From NCBI GenBank assembly GCA_017557405.1, contig JAFYYV010000039.1:1-64000 (forward strand): a stretch of 64,000 nucleotides of DNA, in the 5' to 3' direction. Below are positions 11,008 to 59,429 of the stretch, piece by piece. Within the stretch, counting starts at the first letter, position 1. Every line of letters begins with the position of its first letter. The DNA comes from Prevotella sp. Its GTDB lineage: Bacteria > Bacteroidota > Bacteroidia > Bacteroidales > Bacteroidaceae. The notes below the pieces were generated by a model. It saw only the letters and a list, made by a program, of their open reading frames with translations. It searched no databases and was not told where the DNA came from. The translations under genes were made by a program, and so were the position numbers.

Positions 11008-11619
11008 TTAAATCTTGTTGATGTCCACATATCCGTGCATCACGGCATAGATGGTCAACGCGCTCACGCTCTTCATGCCCAACTTGTCCATGATGTTCTT
11101 GCGGTGTGAGATGACGGTTGTGAGCCCGATGTTCAACTGGCTGGCAATCTCCTTGTTGATATAACCCTGAACAATCAACGAGAGCACTTCAATCTCGCGG
11201 TCGGTCAGAATTTTCGCCTCCAAAGCACGAGGCATTTGCGGAAGATTCTTACCGTGGGCATGAGCGTGTTGCTCGAGCATCAGTATTGAACGCACCAGTT
11301 GTTTTTCGGGTACATTGATGCAAAGGCAATTGAAATCGCTCATCTGGGCATTAGGGTTGGTGGACGTAGTCAACACGATGGTCTTCTGACGACGCTGCAA
11401 GAAGAATGCACGATTTTGAAGCACCACATTCATCGCCACAAAATAATGCACATAACCATCCGGATTGTTTGCTTCAAGTTCAGCAAACGAGCCGAAAACA
11501 TCCACGCTCATGATAGGCATCACGTTCTGCAATATCTGACGCATTCCCAATGCTGACAACGTATTGGGATCTATAACCGCCACAAGCGGACGTGAACCGT
11601 TTTTCTTTTCTTCCATCAT
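11008..11619 (-). CDS. LuxR-type transcriptional regulator with degenerate receiver
   Basis: A 203-residue regulator. Residues about 10-115 resemble a response-regulator receiver fold (LVAVIDPNTLSALGMRQIL, then IVLTTSTN), but the strand that should carry the phosphoacceptor Asp reads YFVAMNVV, so phosphorylation is unlikely. The C-terminus is a LuxR/FixJ helix-turn-helix (LTDREIEVLSLIVQGYINKE, then IGLTTVISHRKNIMDKLG). Its last 25 residues (ALTIYAVMHGYVDI) parallel those of the hemerythrin-LuxR protein at 14952-15908. It lies downstream of nrdDG on the same strand, beyond a terminator. The ATG at 11619 is chosen over a TTG at 11631 that lies inside the promoter box; a second ATG follows at 11616. 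Confidence 0.82.
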   Translation of the reverse strand: MMEEKKNGSRPLVAVIDPNTLSALGMRQILQNVMPIMSVDVFGSFAELEANNPDGYVHYFVAMNVVLQNRAFFLQRRQKTIVLTTSTNPNAQMSDFNCLCINVPEKQLVRSILMLEQHAHAHGKNLPQMPRALEAKILTDREIEVLSLIVQGYINKEIASQLNIGLTTVISHRKNIMDKLGMKSVSALTIYAVMHGYVDINKI

Positions 11620-11628
11620 TTCAAGGTG

Positions 11629-11636
11629 CAAAGTTA
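11629..11636 (-). promoter_or_regulatory. Possible -7 box very close to the start codon
   Basis: TAACTTTG on the minus strand ends nine bases before the ATG at 11619, which would give an almost leaderless mRNA if used. Confidence 0.45.
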
Positions 11637-11716
11637 AGCATATATTCTTGAATGAGCAAGACTTAACTCTTCAAATTAAAACGGAAGAAACAAAATACTC
11701 ACTAATGATGAGGAAA

Positions 11717-11757
11717 CAAAAAAACTCAGACTCCTATATTTGGAACCTGAGCTTTTG
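11717..11757 (-). terminator. Terminator after nrdDG
   Basis: CTCAG (11725-11729) pairs with CTGAG (11747-11751), with T-rich tails on both sides. On the minus strand the hairpin is followed by seven T, fitting the end of the nrdD-nrdG transcript. Confidence 0.65.
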
Positions 11758-11792
11758 GTTGCTTCGGAAGCGGAGGTTTACGTTTTGCCTCA

Positions 11793-12257
11793 TCATTTCC
11801 AGAAGCGGGAAGTTATATCAGTAAATTCGTCCCCTACTGTATGTTTGTACAACCGTTGGTTGGTCGTGCGGTCTTTCAAGCTTCCCAAGTGCTTGATATA
11901 CGGCCCGATCTTGATGTAATCGAAGTCGCTCTTGTGCACCACCGAAGGAATCCTGATTCGTCCGCTGTACCACGCCACCTTGTAGCGAGGGTGCTCGCGA
12001 TGCACGTATTGCGCCAACTCGTTGACAGAAACAGGATCGGCATCACCTCCCATGAAACACAAGCAAGTGATGTTGCTCCCATACTCACGTATGAACTGAT
12101 CGATGACTGGCGGTGTCAACGGCTCACCAACGTCCGCCCACAAATACTTGCTGTGACAACCCGGACATCTGCATGGGCAGTTGGAGATGTTGATGGAGAG
12201 TGTCACCTCATCAGGAATCTCCTGAAAGACGACTCCTGTATTGACGTATTTCAGCAT
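11793..12257 (-). CDS. nrdG: Anaerobic ribonucleotide reductase activating protein
   Basis: NrdG, 154 residues, a radical SAM enzyme that uses S-adenosylmethionine to install the glycyl radical on NrdD. The 4Fe-4S motif C27-x3-C31-x2-C34 is present in NCPCRCPGCHSKYLW, followed by FMGGDAD, the usual SAM-binding GGE-like loop (here GGD). It lies 20 bases after nrdD and ends before a terminator, so both form one transcript. Length is normal for the family. Confidence 0.95.
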   Translation of the reverse strand: MLKYVNTGVVFQEIPDEVTLSINISNCPCRCPGCHSKYLWADVGEPLTPPVIDQFIREYGSNITCLCFMGGDADPVSVNELAQYVHREHPRYKVAWYSGRIRIPSVVHKSDFDYIKIGPYIKHLGSLKDRTTNQRLYKHTVGDEFTDITSRFWK

Positions 12258-12277
12258 ATTGGGTGGAGGCTGTTTGT

Positions 12278-14392
12278 TTATTGTGCCTCCACCGTATACT
12301 TCGCCTTACCTGCATAGAAACGACGTGCGGCCTCTTCCTGACGCGGCTGCGAGAAGTTGCTCACTCGCTTCAGGTATCCGATGATACGCGTCATGTAATC
12401 CACGTCGGTAGAGTGGCACTTCGGGCACTCGTGCAAGTAACGCTTGTCAATATGACCGCACTTGTTGCAGATGGTGTTGGGGATGTTGAACGTGAAATAG
12501 TTGCATCCTTCCTGGGCAGCCACCTTCAGCAACTGGCGGTATTGCGACTTCGAGAGGTGCTCCTCCAAGTTCATGTGAAGAGCAGAACCACCTGTGAGGT
12601 GCTGGATGTAAGGAGCTCCGTGCAGCTTGAACTTGTCGATGATGTTCAACGAGTCGTCCTCCACCACATAGAAATAGGAGTTGTAGCAGTCGCGCGGCAC
12701 AAAATAGCCGTCCTCGCGATCCCACTTTGCGTGCTTCACACCCACGTTCTCGGCTGGAATCATCTCGCAGTTGAAAAGCACATCCTTCGTGCGATACTGC
12801 TTGTTGAACTTCTCCACCAATCCGAGCACTGTCTGCACGAAGGTCAGGTAATCAGGATTGTCGCTGATCTTGATTCCCATGAACTCGGCAGCCTCCACCA
12901 AACCGTTGATACCGATGGTCAGATACTGACGACCGATGTTGATGTAACCAGCATCGAAGAGGGGCAACATGCCGTTGCTCTGCAACTCCTTCAGGTTCTC
13001 GTTGTAAGCCAACTGCACCTTGTGGCAAAGGTCGATGACATACGAGAGATACTCCTTGTAGTCTTGTCCTTTGTTCACGGCAAACTGGATGCAACGGTTC
13101 AGATTGATGGTCAGCACGCTCTTCGAACCTGTTGATACACCACCAGCTCCCAGCGTGTAGCTGAAGCCGTTGTCCTGAATCTCATTGCGCAGGCGGCAGC
13201 ACGAACTCAGCGAGTCGGCATTGTCGCTCATGTAGGTGAAGAAGGAATGACCCTCAGAGTACATCTCGGCAGCAAAGTCACCCCACTCCTTGTCCAGGCA
13301 GTCGCCGTCTTTGGTAAGCAACGACATCGTCTCCACAGGGAAGGTGAGAACGGCCTTCGTGCGCTCCTTGTTGAACCACTTCATGAAACGCTTCTGCAAC
13401 CAAGAAAGACCATCCCAATCGGGCTTGCTTCCATCGGGGAAGTAGAAGTTGCCGAACATGCTGTTGAAATAGTACTTGTCGTAGTAAGCCACATTCCAGA
13501 ACACGGCCTGATAGTTGCGTGCGCCAGTGGGTTGGTTGATGGAATAGACAATCTGCTCGAAGCAATCGGTGATGACCTTGTCAATCGTGCGCTTCTTCAG
13601 AGAGAGGTCCACCACGCGCTCGGAATCCTTATAATAATCTGTTCCATACTCCATTCCGATGAAGTAGTTCAGATACATCAGGAACTCAGGTGTGGCACAA
13701 GCACCACTCAACATCGAACTAACCATGAACACCATGTTGACAAAACCGCCACAGAAGGCCTTCAGGTTGGTGGGTGCAGTAGAGTTGCCACCAATAGAGG
13801 TCGTGCCGCCGATGAGCCAAGGATACATCGTGATGGAAGCGCAATAGTTGGCCAACGAAGTCTCATCATTCTTGTAGATGAAATGATGAGTCAGCAGGTC
13901 GATATATTCGTCAGCCAAACCCTTGCCGTACATCTTTTTAATACGATCCACCAGAAGACGGCGGTTCAAACGAATGAAACTTGACTTGGGCAATTCGCCA
14001 ATCAAAGTTGCAATGTTTTTATGTTCCACATTTGCATTTGCGTCATACTTTGAACCAGTTGCCGCGTTTGCTGCTTCACAATAGTCTGCCAAAAATTTCA
14101 ATCGCTCCAATGTCTCACGATCCTCAGCGTGCTGCTGACGATAGAGCATGAACGACTTGGCGACACCATAGTGCCCCTCCCTCATCAGGGCCTCCTCAAC
14201 CTGGTTTTGGATATCCTCCACCTTGATGTCGTCGTGGATGTCCAAGTGGCTGAGTATCTTGGAGATAGACCCCAAATCAATGGGGTGGTTAACAGACTCG
14301 AATGCCTTGATGATGGCATTCATGATTTTGTCAAGAGAAAAACGGTCTTTAGAGCCGTCTCGTTTGGTGATGGTAAAGTTTTTAATTTCCAT
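12278..14392 (-). CDS. nrdD: Anaerobic ribonucleoside-triphosphate reductase
   Basis: Class III reductase of 704 residues that makes deoxyribonucleotides without oxygen. An N-terminal ATP-cone (TKRDGSKDRFSLDKIMNAII, about residues 1-95) gives allosteric control. The C-terminus has a zinc site made of two CxxC pairs (CNKCGH and CPKCHS) and the glycyl radical loop RIIGYLKRVSNFS with Gly672. The ATG at 14392 is chosen because AAAGGAAATATA precedes it and the frame upstream (to 14461) is poor. The promoter at 14512-14541 gives a leader of about 115 bases. It is co-transcribed with nrdG, and hemerythrin-LuxR and LuxR genes lie on either side. Confidence 0.96.
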   Translation of the reverse strand: MEIKNFTITKRDGSKDRFSLDKIMNAIIKAFESVNHPIDLGSISKILSHLDIHDDIKVEDIQNQVEEALMREGHYGVAKSFMLYRQQHAEDRETLERLKFLADYCEAANAATGSKYDANANVEHKNIATLIGELPKSSFIRLNRRLLVDRIKKMYGKGLADEYIDLLTHHFIYKNDETSLANYCASITMYPWLIGGTTSIGGNSTAPTNLKAFCGGFVNMVFMVSSMLSGACATPEFLMYLNYFIGMEYGTDYYKDSERVVDLSLKKRTIDKVITDCFEQIVYSINQPTGARNYQAVFWNVAYYDKYYFNSMFGNFYFPDGSKPDWDGLSWLQKRFMKWFNKERTKAVLTFPVETMSLLTKDGDCLDKEWGDFAAEMYSEGHSFFTYMSDNADSLSSCCRLRNEIQDNGFSYTLGAGGVSTGSKSVLTINLNRCIQFAVNKGQDYKEYLSYVIDLCHKVQLAYNENLKELQSNGMLPLFDAGYINIGRQYLTIGINGLVEAAEFMGIKISDNPDYLTFVQTVLGLVEKFNKQYRTKDVLFNCEMIPAENVGVKHAKWDREDGYFVPRDCYNSYFYVVEDDSLNIIDKFKLHGAPYIQHLTGGSALHMNLEEHLSKSQYRQLLKVAAQEGCNYFTFNIPNTICNKCGHIDKRYLHECPKCHSTDVDYMTRIIGYLKRVSNFSQPRQEEAARRFYAGKAKYTVEAQ

Positions 14393-14511
14393 TATATTTC
14401 CTTTTTGGAAAACTTCAGAGCCGAAATTTTCATAAAAGTTTCCCGTTTCGAGTAACTTCAATAAGAATTGCGGTTAGTAAGTTTCCTTTTTTGTGAATTC
14501 GTAATCGACCG

Positions 14512-14541
14512 CAAATTTAGAAAAAAAAATCAGAAGTCAAA
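14512..14541 (-). promoter_or_regulatory. Promoter of nrdDG
   Basis: On minus, TTTG (14541-14538), 18 bases, then TAAATTTG (14519-14512). The leader to nrdD is long (over 110 bases); I saw no NrdR box or riboswitch that I can name in it. Confidence 0.6.
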
Positions 14542-14951
14542 CAAAAATAAACCAAAAATTTTCTCATTTTTACAACTTTTAGTGATATATTTTTTACAAA
14601 AATTAATGGAATTTTTTACACTTAAACGTTCTTTTCTATTGATATATAAACAATTAGGTTTTAGACCTTCAAGGAAATAGTCATCCAACCAATATTTTTT
14701 CAAATCACCACCCTTTTGAGAAGAAAAATGGAAGGGGCTTTTTGACAAAATGTAAGCATAGCTTTAGTCGCCCAAGAGCTATGCTTTGAGGTTGTCAAAG
14801 CATAGCTTTCAGAGGGTCAAAGCATAGCAATGGGAATACTGGCGGAAAAGTAAAAACTCTCAACAAACACGTTAATAAAACGCCCCTTTCGCTTTACAAT
14901 TTGCACAAAAAAGAGCCCGTTTGCTGACAAAATGTTCCGAAGCGGATTGTG
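14542..14951. other. AT-rich intergenic stretch between nrdD promoter and the hemerythrin gene
   Basis: No gene is supported here; a 72-residue minus frame (14530-14748) overlaps the nrdD promoter and looks random (Lys/Phe rich). The stretch contains the 22-bp repeat array at 14756-14834. Confidence 0.5.
14756..14834. repeat. 22-bp tandem repeat array, locus B
   Basis: Three units of exactly 22 bases (14756-14777, 14778-14799, 14800-14821) and a partial fourth. Each has GCATAGCTTT or GCTATGCTTT followed by a TGA-to-TCA core; unit two contains the inverted pair TTTGA-N6-TCAAA. Same family as 54259-54390. Confidence 0.8.
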
Positions 14952-15908
14952 TCAGAGTTTTACGCTGGTGATGTCGACCAAATTGTTCACAATGGCGTAG
15001 ATGGTGAGACCTGCCGGCGAGTGAATCTGAAGTTTGCGAGCGATGTTGCGCCGATGGGTGATGACCGTGTTGACCGAAATGCACAGATGGTCGGCTATCT
15101 CCTTGTTTGTCATTCCTTGCACCAAACTGATAATCACATCTTTCTCCCTATCGCTGAGCGCCTCGCCGTTATCGGGCGTTTGGTTGATCATGTTCGAGAT
15201 CTTCGCCGAAACATCGTTCTGCTTCGAGCGCTGCTCCAATCGGCGAATAGCCGGAATGAAAATCTCATCCTCCACTTTTGCGTGCGAAGCCAACCACTCC
15301 TCATTATTATAAATGTCGTAGAGCGTGGCCGACAACTGGTTGTTGTGCAATCCATCGCTGGGCAGGTATTTGATGATGATGTGCTTCAGTTCGCGCAATT
15401 TCACATCGGTTTGTCCGTGATGTTTCGAGAAAGTATCAATGTCGTAATTGTTGCTCACACGCCCAGCCAACAGGTTCTCCACGTATGGAAAGACTGTCTT
15501 CTCCTCATATTTCATGTGCGAACGGATGCTGTGGGCGTATTCATCGTAAAGTTTGAGGATGAGTCGGGCCAAGTTGTCGTTCTCGTCGAGGGCATCAACA
15601 AGCTCTTTGCGGATGAAAGGAAGCTGGAAATCGAGATAATACTCGTGCGACGCACTCAAGTAATGCATCAGCGTGGGAATGGAAAGACGGTCAACATCTT
15701 CTTTGTCGCGATAGCCGTTGATGGTGAAATTGACCACCGCCAAGAACGTGTAAGTGTCCACGCCCTGATCTTCGCACACCTCCCGGATGGTCTTGTCGCC
15801 AAAACCCAGATTGATGCCAAACGAACCCAAACTCTGGAGGATATTGTAGTTGTCGCGTATGATGGAGATCAACTTGTCGTCAGCCTCATACATTTTCTGA
15901 TTCTTCAT
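14952..15908 (-). CDS. DUF542-hemerythrin-LuxR fusion regulator
   Basis: A 318-residue protein in three parts. Residues 8-62 resemble the DUF542/ScdA N-terminal domain of Ric/YtfE iron-centre repair proteins, but the usual CCGG site reads LGFGD. Residues 80-226 form a hemerythrin-like four-helix bundle with candidate di-iron ligands H88, H126, H131, E135, H163/H164, H209 and E213. Residues 250-315 are a LuxR helix-turn-helix (LSDREKDVIISLVQGMTNKE and ISVNTVITHRRNIARKL). The layout suggests a transcription factor sensing O2, NO or peroxide through a di-iron site. It lies upstream of nrdD on the same strand, with separate transcription. The sensing role is inferred. Confidence 0.87.
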   Translation of the reverse strand: MKNQKMYEADDKLISIIRDNYNILQSLGSFGINLGFGDKTIREVCEDQGVDTYTFLAVVNFTINGYRDKEDVDRLSIPTLMHYLSASHEYYLDFQLPFIRKELVDALDENDNLARLILKLYDEYAHSIRSHMKYEEKTVFPYVENLLAGRVSNNYDIDTFSKHHGQTDVKLRELKHIIIKYLPSDGLHNNQLSATLYDIYNNEEWLASHAKVEDEIFIPAIRRLEQRSKQNDVSAKISNMINQTPDNGEALSDREKDVIISLVQGMTNKEIADHLCISVNTVITHRRNIARKLQIHSPAGLTIYAIVNNLVDITSVKL

Positions 15909-16083
15909 ACCTATTCATTATTATATATAAACAACCTAAAAGGACGGTGCAAAGAAACAAAAAATTTGCGAGATATGCAATAATTATAAGTAGGTAATTT
16001 TGAACAAAATACGGATTCAACCCTTACCATCCACCCTCTTTCATACCTACTAATTATGATGGAGGATTTACCAATTTTTGAGT

Positions 16084-16115
16084 ATTGCACTATATATGGG
16101 AAACCAGTACCTTTG
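16084..16115 (+). promoter_or_regulatory. Promoter of the porin-imelysin-cytochrome cluster
   Basis: ATTG (16084-16087), 20 bases, then TACCTTTG (16108-16115). The porin start lies 70 bases further on. No Fur box could be recognised with confidence by eye. Confidence 0.55.
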
Positions 16116-16185: not shown

Positions 16186-17487
16186 ATGAAAAAACTTACG
16201 ACAACCATGATAGCCTGTTCGTTGGCTTTATGTGCAACAAACGTCAGCGCACAAGAGAATGCAGGCGATAGTGTAATGAACCACGCTCGAGGCAATCGGC
16301 TGAGTGTTGGCGGATATGGAGAGATTGCCTACGGGCGCAATTTCTATAGCGACCACGTGAGCCGATATAGTCAACCCGAACTTCACAAAGACGATCCCAG
16401 TCATGGGCGTTTTGATATTCCACATGCGGTCATCTACATGGGTTACGATTTTGGAAAAGGCTGGAGTTTCGGCACTGAGATTGAGTTCGAGCACGGTGGT
16501 GCTGGAATCGCCTACGAGAAAGAAGACGAGGAAGGCGGTGAATGGGAGCAAGAGACCGAGAGAGGTGGTGAGGTTGAACTCGAACAGTTCTGGATTCAGA
16601 AGTCGTTCTCGCGCGCCGCAAACCTTCGAATGGGACACATTGTGGTTCCTGTGGGTCTCAACAATGCTCATCACGAGCCGCTCAGTTTCTTCACCGTTTA
16701 CCGCCCTGAAGGCGAAAACACCATCTTGCCTTCCACGTGGCATCAGACGGGTGTGAGCTTCTGGGGGCGTAGTGGCGATTTCCGATATGAAGCCCAACTG
16801 CTGGCAGGTTTGAACGCCGACAACTTCACCAATACGGGATGGATCAGCAAGGGTCATAAATCGCCGATGGAATACGATGTTGCCAACAAATACGGAGCCA
16901 GCTTACGACTCGACAACTATAGCATTCGCGGCCTTCGCATCGGTTTGAGTGGATATTATGGCCACTCCATCGGCAACAGCTATCCTCGCAATGCGAACGG
17001 TGTGGACGCCCAATACAAAGGACAGGTGGCCATCGGAGCCATCGACTTCACCTACAACGACCACAACTGGATTGTCCGCGGGCAAGCCGATTATGGTTAT
17101 CTGGGAGATGCCGAGCAATTGAAGTACGTCTACAACCGACTGAATTCAAAGTCGCCTTTCAAGCATTCCGCGTTTGTTTCCAAGAACGCCTACGCCGTTG
17201 GCATCGAGGCCGGCTACAATGTGTTCTCGCAAATAGCTTCCTTACGCGCGCATAATAAAAAGATGTATGTGTTCGGTCGCTACGAGATGTATAATCCATA
17301 CGCCAGCAACACCAAAGGAACCGCCTACGACTACACCGCCGTGAAACGTATGGCTGTGGGTGTGAACTATTACCCCATTCCGCAAATCGTGGTGAAAGCC
17401 GAATACTCCAACCGCTTCCTGAAGTCCATCTACAACAACGAACCCGCCTTCAACATCGGAGTGGCCTATGAAGGTTTCTTCAGATAA
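16186..17487 (+). CDS. Outer membrane porin of an iron-uptake-like cluster
   Basis: A 433-residue outer membrane protein: signal peptide (MIACSLALCATNVSAQ), then a barrel of about 16 strands starting with LSVGGYGEIAYGRNF and ending in FNIGVAYEGFFR. An extended acidic insert at about residues 110-130 (Glu/Asp rich) could bind cations. Fifty-six bases downstream lies an imelysin lipoprotein and then a di-heme cytochrome, both linked in other genomes to periplasmic iron uptake. I infer that this barrel brings the metal, or a metal complex, through the outer membrane. It resembles phosphate-selective porins only in general architecture. Confidence 0.8.
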   Translation: MKKLTTTMIACSLALCATNVSAQENAGDSVMNHARGNRLSVGGYGEIAYGRNFYSDHVSRYSQPELHKDDPSHGRFDIPHAVIYMGYDFGKGWSFGTEIEFEHGGAGIAYEKEDEEGGEWEQETERGGEVELEQFWIQKSFSRAANLRMGHIVVPVGLNNAHHEPLSFFTVYRPEGENTILPSTWHQTGVSFWGRSGDFRYEAQLLAGLNADNFTNTGWISKGHKSPMEYDVANKYGASLRLDNYSIRGLRIGLSGYYGHSIGNSYPRNANGVDAQYKGQVAIGAIDFTYNDHNWIVRGQADYGYLGDAEQLKYVYNRLNSKSPFKHSAFVSKNAYAVGIEAGYNVFSQIASLRAHNKKMYVFGRYEMYNPYASNTKGTAYDYTAVKRMAVGVNYYPIPQIVVKAEYSNRFLKSIYNNEPAFNIGVAYEGFFR

Positions 17488-17543: not shown

Positions 17544-18815
17544 ATGAAAAAACATCTCATTCTATCGATTGCCGTCCTCATGGGCGCCCTGACATTCACA
17601 TCGTGCAGCGACGATGATGATGAAAAGAAAGATTCAAACTCAACCATCGTTGACAATGCCAAGTACAAGGACAAGAGCTATGGAAACGCAGCCATCGACG
17701 CTTGTGCCAACGTGGTGAGCCAATTTGAGAACGCCAACCAAATCATCGCAACCGCAAGCCTCACAAGCGAACAAGAGGACTATCTGCGCAACACGCTGAC
17801 CAACCTCGTTGACAACGTGATTGTGCCCACCTACACCGAGTTGGCCGACGATGTGGAGGATTTGGAGAAGACGTTGAATGGATTGACCGTCAACACCATC
17901 ACGCAATCGCAAATCAACACTGCCTGCAACGATTTCAAGAAGGCTCGCGAGAATTGGGAACGCTCAGAGGCTTTCTTGATGGGCGCTGCCAGCGATTTCG
18001 ATATCGACCCCACCATCGACTCTTGGCCGTTGAACCGCACGCTGTTGCTCAGCTATTTCAACAATGGAATGAACGACGAGATGCTCGAAGATGCCACTAT
18101 TCTGGGCTTCCACGCCCTTGAGTTCATCCTCTTCCGCAATGGTCAACCCCGCAAGGTATCTGAGCTTCAGGCGAACGATACTTACAAGAATTTCGAGAAG
18201 ATTTCAGGCGCTCAGGAGCTGAAGTACGCACAAACCATCTGCACCCTGCTCAAACAGCGTTGCTTCCAATTGCAAGTGGCGTGGGATGGTGGTAAGAACG
18301 CCAGCCGTCTGGCTGTTGTAAAAGCCGCAGGACTTGACTACCAGACGGAGAACGGACTCTCGTACGGAGAGAATCTCACGAGTGCTGGTATCAACAACAA
18401 GAGCACTTTCCCCACCCTGAAAGCCGCTATCGCTCAGGTGCTCTCCGATGACGAAGGCAGTTGCGCCGCCATCGCCACAGAGGTGGGGACAGCCAAGATT
18501 GCCAATCCCTTCTCAGCTGGCGACATCTCGTACGTTGAATCGCCCTACAGCTACAACTCCATCACCGACTTCCAAGACAACATCCGTTCCATCCGAAACG
18601 TGTGGTATGGAAGCACAAACGGAAAAGCAGCCAACGTCAGCTTCAACGGCTTCTTTGCCAGCGTGAACCAATCAGCCACCAACTCGACTGTGACCAAAGC
18701 ATTCGAAGATGCCATCACCAAGATTGGCATCATGCCCTCTCCTTTCGTGAAATACTGTAGCACGGTGTGGAACATCGAATTTGTTGACGACGAAGACTGG
18801 GAAGTGGAAGAATAA
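17544..18815 (+). CDS. Imelysin family lipoprotein
   Basis: A 423-residue imelysin/EfeO-M75-like protein. It begins with a lipoprotein signal (LTFTSC, lipidated Cys21) followed by an acidic linker. The family GxHxxE motif is present as GFHALE (Gly188, His190, Glu193), and the two-fold helical bundle pattern is plain. Imelysins are periplasmic or surface iron-binding proteins; the old view as peptidases is doubtful. It lies between the porin and the di-heme cytochrome on one strand with short gaps, so the three probably work as one uptake path. A hairpin separates it from the next gene. Confidence 0.92.
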   Translation: MKKHLILSIAVLMGALTFTSCSDDDDEKKDSNSTIVDNAKYKDKSYGNAAIDACANVVSQFENANQIIATASLTSEQEDYLRNTLTNLVDNVIVPTYTELADDVEDLEKTLNGLTVNTITQSQINTACNDFKKARENWERSEAFLMGAASDFDIDPTIDSWPLNRTLLLSYFNNGMNDEMLEDATILGFHALEFILFRNGQPRKVSELQANDTYKNFEKISGAQELKYAQTICTLLKQRCFQLQVAWDGGKNASRLAVVKAAGLDYQTENGLSYGENLTSAGINNKSTFPTLKAAIAQVLSDDEGSCAAIATEVGTAKIANPFSAGDISYVESPYSYNSITDFQDNIRSIRNVWYGSTNGKAANVSFNGFFASVNQSATNSTVTKAFEDAITKIGIMPSPFVKYCSTVWNIEFVDDEDWEVEE

Positions 18816-18910: not shown

Positions 18911-20680
18911 ATGAAAAAGTTCAAGTATTTACCTAAGTTGATGTTCGTGGGAGCATTTGCCATTCCCGTGCTGACAGCTTGTTCCGACAAAGATGAAGTG
19001 GAAGACCTCGGTTCACTTGTCCCACAGGAAGAGGTATTCGGCAAAGCCAACGATGTGTTCAGCGCCGACGAATGGTATCCTGGAGGCCAACTGGGAACAA
19101 CCGAGAAAGCCAGCTATTCGGCGGCTGCTCCTGCCGTCATGAACATTGCGGGGATGGAGGAAGACTTCAACACAGGTGAGGATTTCTTCGAGCATCTCTA
19201 CACGTTCGAACAAGCTCCACGCAAAGGGCTCGGTCCTGCATGGGTGCGCAACAGCTGTATCGCCTGCCACCCCAGCTACGGACACGGAAAGCGGCAGACG
19301 GAATACAAAGCCAACACCATCGGCAACGGCTACCTGCTCGTGATCTACCATCCCGACAATAACGCCTACATCTCCGAGGTGACTGGTATGCCACAAACAC
19401 AAGCTATGTCGCCCTTCAAAGCGCCTATCAACGAAGACCAAATCCAAATAGAATGGAAGAACGTGACCGCGATGGAAAGCGGGCTTCCCATGAAATTCGA
19501 AGATGGTGAAAGCTATTCGTTGATCTATCCCGAAGTGAGAATCCCACAGACTGCATTCAACACCAATCCAAAGCCTGAGAACTACGAAGTGCGTCTGGAG
19601 TCGACCATCGGCATCTATGGCACCGGTTTGCTCGATGCACTCAACGATGAAGACATCGAAGCACAATGGGCGGCTGAAGCACCCTACGTGGAATTGAATC
19701 CCGCGATGTGGGACAAAGAGACTAACAGATTCAAAGCAAGTGCCTACTATTCAGCACCTTATAACGACACGGGAAAGTTTCATGGCGACCACGGTCCTTT
19801 GAAGCGATTCACCTATGCGATGACTCGTGGAACCCTGCAAGACGGAGCTGGAGCCAACGCCATCTGGAACATCACCAACGTCACCCGCTCCGACCGCCAT
19901 TGGCTCTACACGACTTCCGCATGGGCAAAAGCACAAAGCGAAGACAACGAAGTCATCGACTACATCAAGCGACATGGACAGTCAGAGGCCAACATCCTTC
20001 ACCCCTATTATGCCGATGGAACCAACGAGGGCATCTCCAATCGCATCTACGAGATATTGAACACGCCATCGGTCGCCTACAAGAGCACCTTTGAACAATA
20101 TCTTCTCAACGGAGCACCCTACAACGGCAAGGAGGAAATGAGCAACAAGCAGTATTACCAATTCATGGTGTGGCATCGCGGACTTGCCGTTCCTGCCGCC
20201 CGCAACCTGAACAGAGCCGAGGTGAAGCGCGGAAAGACGCTCTTCATGCAAATGGGATGCGCACAATGCCACCGTCCTTCGTGGACAACCGGCAACGACA
20301 ACATGTGGGTTGACGCCAGCATCAAAGCCTACGCAGATGCCAACGGATTGGCGAAAGACGGCGACTACACCAAACTTTTGCCCAAGTTCCCGAAACAAAC
20401 CATCTGGCCTTACACCGACATGGTGCAACATCGCCTCTTCATGGTCAACGACATTCGCACAGGATGGTGCCGCACAACTCCTCTCTGGGGACGTGGTCTT
20501 TCAAGGCAACTCACTGGAGCCGACGACCGTCTGCACGACTGCCGCGCACGCACCATCATCGAAGCCATCATGTGGCACGGCTACTCCAAGAAGAGCGATG
20601 CCTACCGAGCCACCGAGAAGTTCTACAAGCTTCCCAAAGCCGATCGTGATGCTGTCGTGAAATTCATTGAAGCGATTTAG
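18911..20680 (+). CDS. Di-heme oxidoreductase lipoprotein (DUF1111 type)
   Basis: A 589-residue lipoprotein (LTAC, lipidated Cys24) of the di-heme oxidoredictase/DUF1111 family, distantly related to MauG and cytochrome c peroxidases. Two c-type heme sites are visible: C116-x2-C119-H120 (CIACH) and C450-x2-C453-H454 (CAQCH). Other family features are VRNSCIACHPSYGHG and GRGLSRQLTGADDRLHDCRA near the end. It is the third gene of the porin-imelysin cluster. A role in periplasmic electron transfer, perhaps changing the iron redox state for the imelysin, is inferred from context only. Confidence 0.9.
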   Translation: MKKFKYLPKLMFVGAFAIPVLTACSDKDEVEDLGSLVPQEEVFGKANDVFSADEWYPGGQLGTTEKASYSAAAPAVMNIAGMEEDFNTGEDFFEHLYTFEQAPRKGLGPAWVRNSCIACHPSYGHGKRQTEYKANTIGNGYLLVIYHPDNNAYISEVTGMPQTQAMSPFKAPINEDQIQIEWKNVTAMESGLPMKFEDGESYSLIYPEVRIPQTAFNTNPKPENYEVRLESTIGIYGTGLLDALNDEDIEAQWAAEAPYVELNPAMWDKETNRFKASAYYSAPYNDTGKFHGDHGPLKRFTYAMTRGTLQDGAGANAIWNITNVTRSDRHWLYTTSAWAKAQSEDNEVIDYIKRHGQSEANILHPYYADGTNEGISNRIYEILNTPSVAYKSTFEQYLLNGAPYNGKEEMSNKQYYQFMVWHRGLAVPAARNLNRAEVKRGKTLFMQMGCAQCHRPSWTTGNDNMWVDASIKAYADANGLAKDGDYTKLLPKFPKQTIWPYTDMVQHRLFMVNDIRTGWCRTTPLWGRGLSRQLTGADDRLHDCRARTIIEAIMWHGYSKKSDAYRATEKFYKLPKADRDAVVKFIEAI

Positions 20681-38746: not shown

Positions 38747-38834
38747 ATTGACCATCTTTGACCGCCTCATTGCATAGCTTTGACCTGCTCATTGCATAGC
38801 TTTGAGCGTGTCATTTGTGGTCTTTAGCGCTGTA
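38747..38834. repeat. 22-bp tandem repeat array, locus D
   Basis: Four units of exactly 22 bases (38747-38768, 38769-38790, 38791-38812, 38813-38834). The middle two read ATTGCATAGCTTTGA then CCTGCTC or GCGTGTC; the outer two are diverged. Same family as 54259-54390 and, inverted, 143-186. Confidence 0.85.
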
Positions 38835-54231: not shown

Positions 54232-54258
54232 GCCTTTGATTCGTATCCTTTTGCTTTG

Positions 54259-54390
54259 TCATTCCATAGCTTTGACGAGGTCATTCCATAGCTTTGAGCG
54301 CCTCATTCCATAGCTTTGAGCGTGTCATTCCATAGCTTTGAGCGTGTCATTCCATAGCTTTGAGCGTGTCATTGCATAGCTTTGCCTTCG
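54259..54390. repeat. 22-bp tandem repeat array, locus E (six units)
   Basis: Six consecutive 22-base units from 54259 to 54390. The third, fourth and fifth are identical (TCATTCCATAGCTTTGAGCG then TG); the first, second and last differ at one to seven bases. It lies just after the hppA terminator, before a second repeat-like segment (54391-54460). Confidence 0.95.
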
Positions 54391-59320: not shown

Positions 59321-59341
59321 AAGAAAAATAAGGGTAATTCG

Positions 59342-59429
59342 CTTACATGTGGCATCTGGGAGGCTTACATGTGGCATCTGAGAGGCTTACATGTGGCATC
59401 TGAGAGGCTTACATGTGGCATCTGACAAA
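59342..59429. repeat. 22-bp tandem repeat array, locus F
   Basis: Four units of exactly 22 bases (59342-59363, 59364-59385, 59386-59407, 59408-59429), CTTACATGTGGCATCTGAGA then GG; the first differs in one base and the last in its end. Sequence differs from the TTTGAGCG type but the period and a TCTGAG...TTACA core are shared. Confidence 0.9.

Follow-up and report, generated by a model that had tools for sequence, protein, structure and literature searches.

We analysed a 64,000-nucleotide (nt) window from a Prevotella sp. (positions 1–64,000 of contig JAFYYV010000039.1), focusing on a gene (P0001; positions 14952–15908, minus strand) whose 318-residue product, here called Hr-LuxR, consists of a hemerythrin (Hr) domain fused to a LuxR/GerE helix-turn-helix (HTH). 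Our analysis suggests that Hr-LuxR is probably, though by no means certainly, a one-component transcription regulator of iron limitation that activates its own gene and controls a divergent operon encoding imelysin. Judged from its sequence, the protein is the fused form, without the pseudo-receiver, of an iron-regulated hemerythrin and CdhR pair of other Bacteroidales. The fusion, the conservation of the ligands, the promoter elements and the gene neighbourhoods are read from the DNA; that the split homologues are induced in low iron, as is an imelysin locus with the same gene content, is taken from published work (PMC10434189).

The hemerythrin domain spans residues 84–221 (15246–15659, minus strand) and scores 45.6 bits with the Pfam Hemerythrin model PF01814 (cut-off 25.3), followed by the LuxR/GerE DNA-binding domain at residues 250–305 (14994–15161, minus strand; Pfam GerE, 61.4 bits, cut-off 23.5). 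Six residues, H88, H131, E135, H164, H209 and E213, are invariant in 120/120 aligned sequences, i.e., the window protein and 119 loci retained by a length filter out of 130 (26 of the sequences at 70% identity or less). They match six of the seven ligand positions of YtfE, a set that we take to be five His and two Glu, the YtfE residues themselves having been checked. An hhalign comparison paired H131/E135, H164 and H209/E213 with YtfE H129/E133, H160 and H204/E208, although weakly (probability 7.7 and 53.5), and H88 was paired with YtfE H84 by eye. A prior interpretation made from the DNA alone, here the sequence-only reading, had described a full set of His/Glu ligands behind a DUF542-like start without its CCGG site, and had named ligand conservation in relatives as a test. 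That conservation was confirmed for four His and two Glu, but the seventh RIC position is not His; the CCGG motif is indeed absent, with LGFGD in its place, but the likeness to DUF542 is weak, PF04405 being matched by 1 of 11 members (E 0.097). Membership in the RIC family (YtfE/ScdA) is not supported, since the score with the RIC profile TIGR03652 is far below the cut-off (64.7 against 204.7 bits, matching from profile position 26), CCGG is absent and the five-His set is incomplete. A single-sequence search of the hemerythrin part found no relative in the PDB, only one chance protease match (E 0.17), and a profile search reached YtfE at E 0.17 at best. Most simply, Hr-LuxR would be a hemerythrin-fold protein with conserved ligands and an added DNA-binding domain, that is, a metal-dependent regulator.

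Comparison with Bacteroides-like genera pointed to the origin of this architecture. All six split loci inspected there contain a stand-alone Hr frame that overlaps a LuxR gene. The HTH encoded by the latter is 57–70% identical to that of Hr-LuxR, and 40–45% identical to that of RR2, the second LuxR regulator of the window, and because of the former similarity we regard Hr-LuxR as the probable fused form of hemerythrin and CdhR. About 28 residues join hemerythrin and HTH in Hr-LuxR, and about 130 residues precede the HTH in the split CdhR-like proteins; this N-terminal part, which is receiver-like by eye and has no Pfam match, is missing from the fusion. Hr-LuxR thus has the hemerythrin domain and the CdhR-type HTH of the pair, the latter judged on the six split loci, and lacks the receiver-like domain. 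The published pair corresponds to PG1236-PG1237 of P. gingivalis, upregulated 6.9–7.3-fold in low iron, and BT0519-BT0520 of B. thetaiotaomicron, upregulated 16–20-fold, and a fused hemerythrin-CdhR had already been noted in P. intermedia as PIN17_RS10465 (PMC10434189). The sequence-only reading knew of no description of such a system; this is not borne out, as the fused protein and its split relatives both appear in that paper. CdhR is said to activate the hmu genes (PMC10434189, PMC10101095); its mode of action on hmuYR is described as unclear, and it is not known to bind iron (PMC10434189).

The region upstream of Hr-LuxR contains a putative operator and promoter. The Hr-LuxR promoter has its -7 box (TTTCTTTG; 15950–15957, minus strand) 20 nt after ATTG, and predicted operator 1 (AAATTACCTACTTATAATTATTGC; 15977–16000, minus strand), an inverted repeat, lies immediately next to its -33 TTG. 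Predicted operator 2 (GATTTACCAATTTTTGAGTATTGC; 16065–16088, plus strand) has the same architecture and belongs to the divergent porin promoter with its -7 box TACCTTTG (16108–16115, plus strand). The element common to Hr upstream regions is AAAATACCTA-N4-T-N4-ATTGC, followed after 20 nt by a Bacteroidales -7 box. It was defined on 81 regions, those of the window and of 80 named relatives (the best 80 of 566), and within this same set 63/81 match at 17/24 positions or more. Only the 24 rows from other genera serve as a test, as same-genus genomes may repeat the species of named loci; nine of them reach this level, comprising all six split loci (18–20/24) and 3/18 fused loci. The element can be read as two inverted TACCTA halves (TACCTA-N4-TAGGTA) ending in the -33 TTG, and resembles what we take to be the NarL 7-2-7 site. 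A second dyad, toward the divergent gene, matches at 9/10 or better in 34/81 regions, compared to 0.3 expected from shuffling, the pattern having been read off part of the regions in which it is counted. When the whole window was scanned with a weight matrix, two sites exceeded 4 bits (31.2 and 13.0), the top of one shuffled copy being 3.0, and the strict promoter form has a single match in the 3.56 Mb genome, that at Hr-LuxR. We consider as new the predicted NarL-like dyad at the Hr promoter's -33 element, together with its second copy at the divergent porin-imelysin-DHOR promoter.

The divergent operon begins with a putative porin (16186–17487, plus strand), which has no match in Pfam or NCBIfam and was named from the gene order of a B. 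thetaiotaomicron locus, followed by an imelysin of the peptidase M75 family (17544–18815, plus strand) and a di-haem oxidoreductase (DHOR; 18911–20680, plus strand), both identified by domain scan. Of the 80 named Hr loci, 38 have the porin immediately upstream in divergent orientation. Porin, imelysin, DHOR and ResB-like genes are found in clusters in 40, 35, 38 and 31 of the loci, respectively; the ResB-like gene is not among the frames adjoining the three window genes. In B. thetaiotaomicron, BT2473-82, which includes CcsA, a porin, a thiol oxidoreductase and an M75 peptidase, is upregulated 63–324-fold in low iron (PMC10434189). In L114 and L116, the gene divergent to Hr-CdhR encodes flavodoxin and has a similar promoter. 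Separately, promoters of like architecture with a half-site close to ATCATCA were observed at three hmuY loci (L173, L175 and L177), before the frame that precedes hmuY.

LuxR-family proteins usually activate from sites next to the -33 element. We propose that the receiver-like domain of CdhR was lost, so that the hemerythrin bundle sits directly on a CdhR-type HTH, and that this bundle would gain, lose or oxidise a di-iron centre. In low iron, a dimer of Hr-LuxR would bind TACCTA-N4-TAGGTA beside the -33 element, centred at an estimated 45 nt or so upstream of the transcription start, and would raise the expression of its own gene and of the divergent porin-imelysin-DHOR operon. The pairing of each protein with its dyad, activation as the outcome, iron as the ligand and the nature of the signal are all predictions within this model.

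Several observations weigh against it. The Hr-LuxR position matching YtfE H105 is not His, so that one RIC ligand position differs, and orthology to PG1236-37/BT0519-20 rests on the published description together with the split loci. The available part of PMC10434189 gives no induction figure for the fused P. intermedia gene, CdhR is also reported to repress mfa1 and luxS (PMC4082711), and the known CdhR target HmuY (PF14064) was not found in the window's genome. With regard to the operator, 18/81 Hr upstream regions have no good main site, and the main element is missing in 15/24 other-genus rows, six of which keep the dyad at 9/10 or better. The second dyad occurs in 22/38 loci with a porin but also in 11/42 without one, and the operator is assigned by position, such that another regulator could own it. 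Genome-wide, the palindrome on its own shows no enrichment (58 matches, compared to 172 for the reversed control), and TACC-N8-GGTA was for this reason rejected as a genome-wide predictor. Finally, the window operon resembles BT2473-82 by gene content and not by sequence, and the latter has its own HTH regulator, BT2482 (PMC10434189).

Two alternatives deserve most weight. It is possible, although less probable than not, that the operator and targets are as we propose while the primary signal is O2, peroxide or NO, with the iron response being secondary. Relatives with the hemerythrin fold bind di-iron, a fall of cdhR has been reported under microaerophilic conditions (PMC10101095), and the hemerythrin domains of plant BRUTUS react with O2 and H2O2, their iron being partly labile on reduction (PMC12022348), so that iron and redox signals may be one and the same. 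On the other hand, the linked genes are related to iron, and so is the published induction (PMC10434189). The second alternative, which we consider unlikely, is that the dyads at Hr-LuxR and the porin bind a different regulator, e.g., a Fur-like protein or a LuxR paralogue, and that Hr-LuxR is a mere member of the regulon. The like architecture with other half-sites at the flavodoxin, TonB-receptor and hmuY-region promoters suggests that several regulators may share it, the absence of the main element from most other-genus rows fits this explanation as well, and, according to the title of a cited paper, an extracytoplasmic function (ECF) factor regulates cdhR. Set against this, the site accompanies the Hr gene in all six split loci and in most Prevotella loci. 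Moreover, a NarL-like heptamer pair is presumably the expected target of a GerE-type HTH.

A third explanation, put forward in the sequence-only reading, is that nrdDG are under the direct control of Hr-LuxR, acting as a di-iron sensor of O2, NO or peroxide; we now consider this improbable. The gene arrangement on which it was founded is correct: on the minus strand the order of transcription is Hr-LuxR, nrdD, nrdG and RR2, all four genes were confirmed, and two LuxR-type regulators do flank nrdD-nrdG. The similarity between the C-terminal tails of the two regulators (LTIYAIVNNLVDI and LTIYAVMHGYVDI) is also real, and variants of these tails occur in aligned RR2, CdhR-like and Hr-LuxR relatives as well. 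The anaerobic ribonucleoside-triphosphate reductase gene nrdD (P0003; 12278–14392, minus strand; TIGR02827, 988 bits, cut-off 568) and the activating enzyme gene nrdG (P0004; 11793–12257, minus strand; TIGR02826, 174.6 bits, cut-off 151.7) both score above their family cut-offs and encode a class III ribonucleotide reductase, the window NrdD scoring higher against 4coi/4u3e (251 bits) than against 8p23 (50 bits). A terminator-like hairpin of 15 pairs lies 3' of nrdG (11720–11756, minus strand), hairpins here being no more frequent than in shuffles (3 found, mean 4.3).

The linkage between Hr-LuxR and nrdDG was then quantified. Of the 80 named Hr loci, 32 contain nrdD. After 18/80 loci with less than 4.5 kb on a side were dropped, 62 fully flanked loci (at least 4.5 kb on both sides) remained. 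Of these, 27 have nrdD (downstream on the same strand in 25, divergent in 2), 35 have RR2, 14 have both and 14 have neither; because species are related, such counts of loci or genomes are not independent events. The presence or absence of nrdD must have changed at least 13 times along the Hr tree, and one locus (L046) retains nrdG without nrdD between Hr and RR2, which points to loss of nrdD. Among 201 family genomes, 63 have Hr and NrdD, 116 Hr alone, 4 NrdD alone and 18 neither (Fisher p = 0.15), using cut-offs chosen for this analysis (Hr best E ≤ 1e-30; NrdD at least 300 bits). The linkage that the sequence-only reading had named as a check is thus real within Prevotella, yet Hr-LuxR does not depend on nrdDG, because 116/201 genomes carry Hr alone.

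The control regions gave a similar picture. At 9/10 or better, the Hr dyad is found in 0/32 and 0/47 nrdD upstream regions and in 0/39 RR2 upstream regions (the nrdD set of 32 and the RR2 set of 39 include the window), and the matrix scan found no Hr-type site in the window gap 14393–14951, where the sequence-only reading had proposed to check for binding. With the weight matrix, 2/32 and 2/47 nrdD regions and 2/39 RR2 regions exceed the 99% level of shuffles; the strong matches (31–35 bits; nrdD of L016 and L047, RR2 of L023) are the Hr gene's own site in a shared divergent gap, and the remaining ones are weak (9.1 and 5.0 bits for nrdD, 0.6 for RR2). The nrdD gene has elements of its own. 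In the window these are a -7 box TAAATTTG (14512–14519, minus strand), dyad 1 AAGTTACTCGAAACGGGAAACTT (14436–14458, minus strand; 13/14 matches) and dyad 2 AAGTTTTCCAAAAAGGAAA (14397–14415, minus strand). The dyad AAGTTnnCC-N5-GGnnAACTT, at 12/14 or better, is present in 27/32 nrdD regions from the window and its named relatives, compared to 0.1 expected, and in 27/27 it lies downstream of the TAnnTTTG box. An RNA hairpin was considered for these dyads and rejected, since by eye the half-site changes are uncompensated and the spacer occurs in both orientations. Where Prevotella has DNA dyads, a cobalamin riboswitch precedes nrdD in 12 of 18 other-genus sources (L119, L123, L124, L128, L132, L133, L135, L137, L138, L163, L166 and L168), these 18 having been chosen partly after riboswitch-like sequence had been noticed; no such riboswitch was found at the window nrdD. 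NrdR exceeds the TIGR00244 cut-off in 0/61 family genomes, including that of the window, with matches below the cut-off in 11/61, located in long frames of about 740–920 residues.

Taken together, direct control of nrdDG by Hr-LuxR can draw on the recurrent adjacency in two orientations, on the Hr site inside the gap shared with nrdD in the divergent loci L016 and L047, on the rise of nrdDG in low iron in P. intermedia (PMC10434189), on the lack of NrdR above cut-off, which calls for another nrdDG regulator, and on possible transcription read-through from Hr-LuxR into nrdDG. It is opposed by the many genomes with Hr but without nrdD, by the lack of the Hr dyad at nrdD and in the window gap, by the dyads or riboswitches that nrdD has instead, and by L046, where nrdG adjoins Hr without nrdD. 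Standing between Hr-LuxR and RR2 with no recognisable site for either, nrdDG appear to be neighbours and not targets.

As a separate observation, arrays of a unit of about 22 nt around AAAGCTATGCTTT occur at 14753–14831, 38756–38815 and 54257–54384; the first, between Hr-LuxR and nrdD, has four copies exactly 22 nt apart, and the window as a whole contains 8 matches with up to two mismatches, compared to 1.3 expected. Another 22-nt tandem repeat with a different unit is located at 59341–59425 (3.9 copies, 98% match).

RR2 (P0002; 11008–11631, minus strand) has a GerE domain at residues 141–196 as its only match above cut-off, with no Pfam receiver model reaching the cut-off in its N-terminal part. 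Because the TTG start at 11631 falls inside the gene's own -7 box (TAACTTTG; 11629–11636, minus strand), the ATG at 11619 or 11616 is the likelier start. We also considered RR2 as the CdhR orthologue and rejected this, since the CdhR-like HTHs of the split loci are nearer to Hr-LuxR and RR2 orthologues are present as separate genes in the same genomes. Outside Prevotella, a TonB-dependent receptor lies near RR2 in 10/25 inspected loci. A site defined on four loci (L115, L118, L121 and L125) was examined in 20 further loci as an independent test: in 6/6 loci with a TonB receptor, the receptor's promoter carries an ATCCTCA-N4-TGAGGAT-type dyad and TTG, with a -7 box following at 20 nt, and the dyad was found in 0/14 loci without the receptor. 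In ten Prevotella genomes this pattern had 49 matches, compared to 8 for the reversed control, some palindromic places being counted twice. Loci were available for 30 of the 49, and among sites with a -7 box, the only ones listed, six are distinct, preceding four TonB receptors (33–39% identical to the first), a HemN that scores 408 bits (cut-off 325) and a protoporphyrinogen oxidase with 252 bits (cut-off 98). The HemN and protoporphyrinogen oxidase promoters with an RR2-type dyad are those of L189 and L183, from Prevotella genomes. The window's own genome contained no convincing RR2 site, L211 and L212 looking like chance. RR2 is best seen as a regulator of haem or iron uptake, a separate LuxR protein whose subgroup would act through ATCCTCA-N4-TGAGGAT at TonB-receptor and haem-synthesis genes, with dyad binding inferred from adjacency. 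That RR2 itself regulates nrdDG is very improbable: RR2 and nrdD share a stretch in 14/62 loci, and the gene immediately after nrdDG is RR2 both in the window and in L127 from another genus, but the RR2 subgroup goes with dyads at TonB receptors unlike the nrdD dyad, and some genera have RR2 without the nrdD dyad.

If these assignments are correct, iron and haem supply would be controlled by related LuxR proteins sharing one promoter architecture, and the two dyads, with the -7 box at a constant spacing of 20 nt, would make it possible to predict iron and haem regulons in gut and oral Bacteroidales. Hr-LuxR offers a single protein, a defined candidate DNA site and a promoter for testing CdhR-type regulation. 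The existence of a natural fusion without a receiver-like part suggests that hemerythrin is the sensor, and it would imply that in split systems this sensor contacts the CdhR pseudo-receiver. In its widest form, which we offer tentatively and hold somewhat short of an even chance, the proposal is that the di-iron hemerythrin domain of Hr-LuxR is the direct sensor of iron and redox state that switches a LuxR-type HTH, as a prokaryotic counterpart in principle of FBXL5/BRUTUS, that the same sensor contacts the CdhR pseudo-receiver in other Bacteroidales, and that an RR2 subgroup with its own dyad runs a haem regulon.

Among known systems, the closest is the hemerythrin and CdhR pair, with which Hr-LuxR shares the hemerythrin domain, the CdhR-type HTH and, in six split loci, the upstream promoter element. 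It differs in being one protein instead of two, in having lost the receiver-like domain, and in coexisting with a separate LuxR protein, RR2, with nrdDG in between. With the RIC di-iron repair proteins (YtfE/ScdA) it shares the hemerythrin bundle and weakly aligned ligands; unlike them, it has no CCGG and no His at the H105 position, and carries an added DNA-binding domain. NarL/FixJ-type LuxR regulators have the same GerE HTH and presumably a similar inverted repeat of heptamers, together with a receiver domain that is absent from Hr-LuxR. FBXL5 is reportedly a hemerythrin iron sensor. The available part of PMC10434189 describes no operator for the hemerythrin and CdhR pair, and its iron-starvation locus BT2473-BT2482 shares porin, thiol oxidoreductase and M75 peptidase with the window operon in gene content only, the window genes standing divergent to Hr-LuxR. 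The eukaryotic FBXL5 and BRUTUS provide a works-like analogy, in which a hemerythrin domain reports the iron and redox state to the control of iron uptake (for BRUTUS, PMC12022348); these are ubiquitin ligases, whereas Hr-LuxR is a predicted bacterial DNA-binding protein known here from its sequence.

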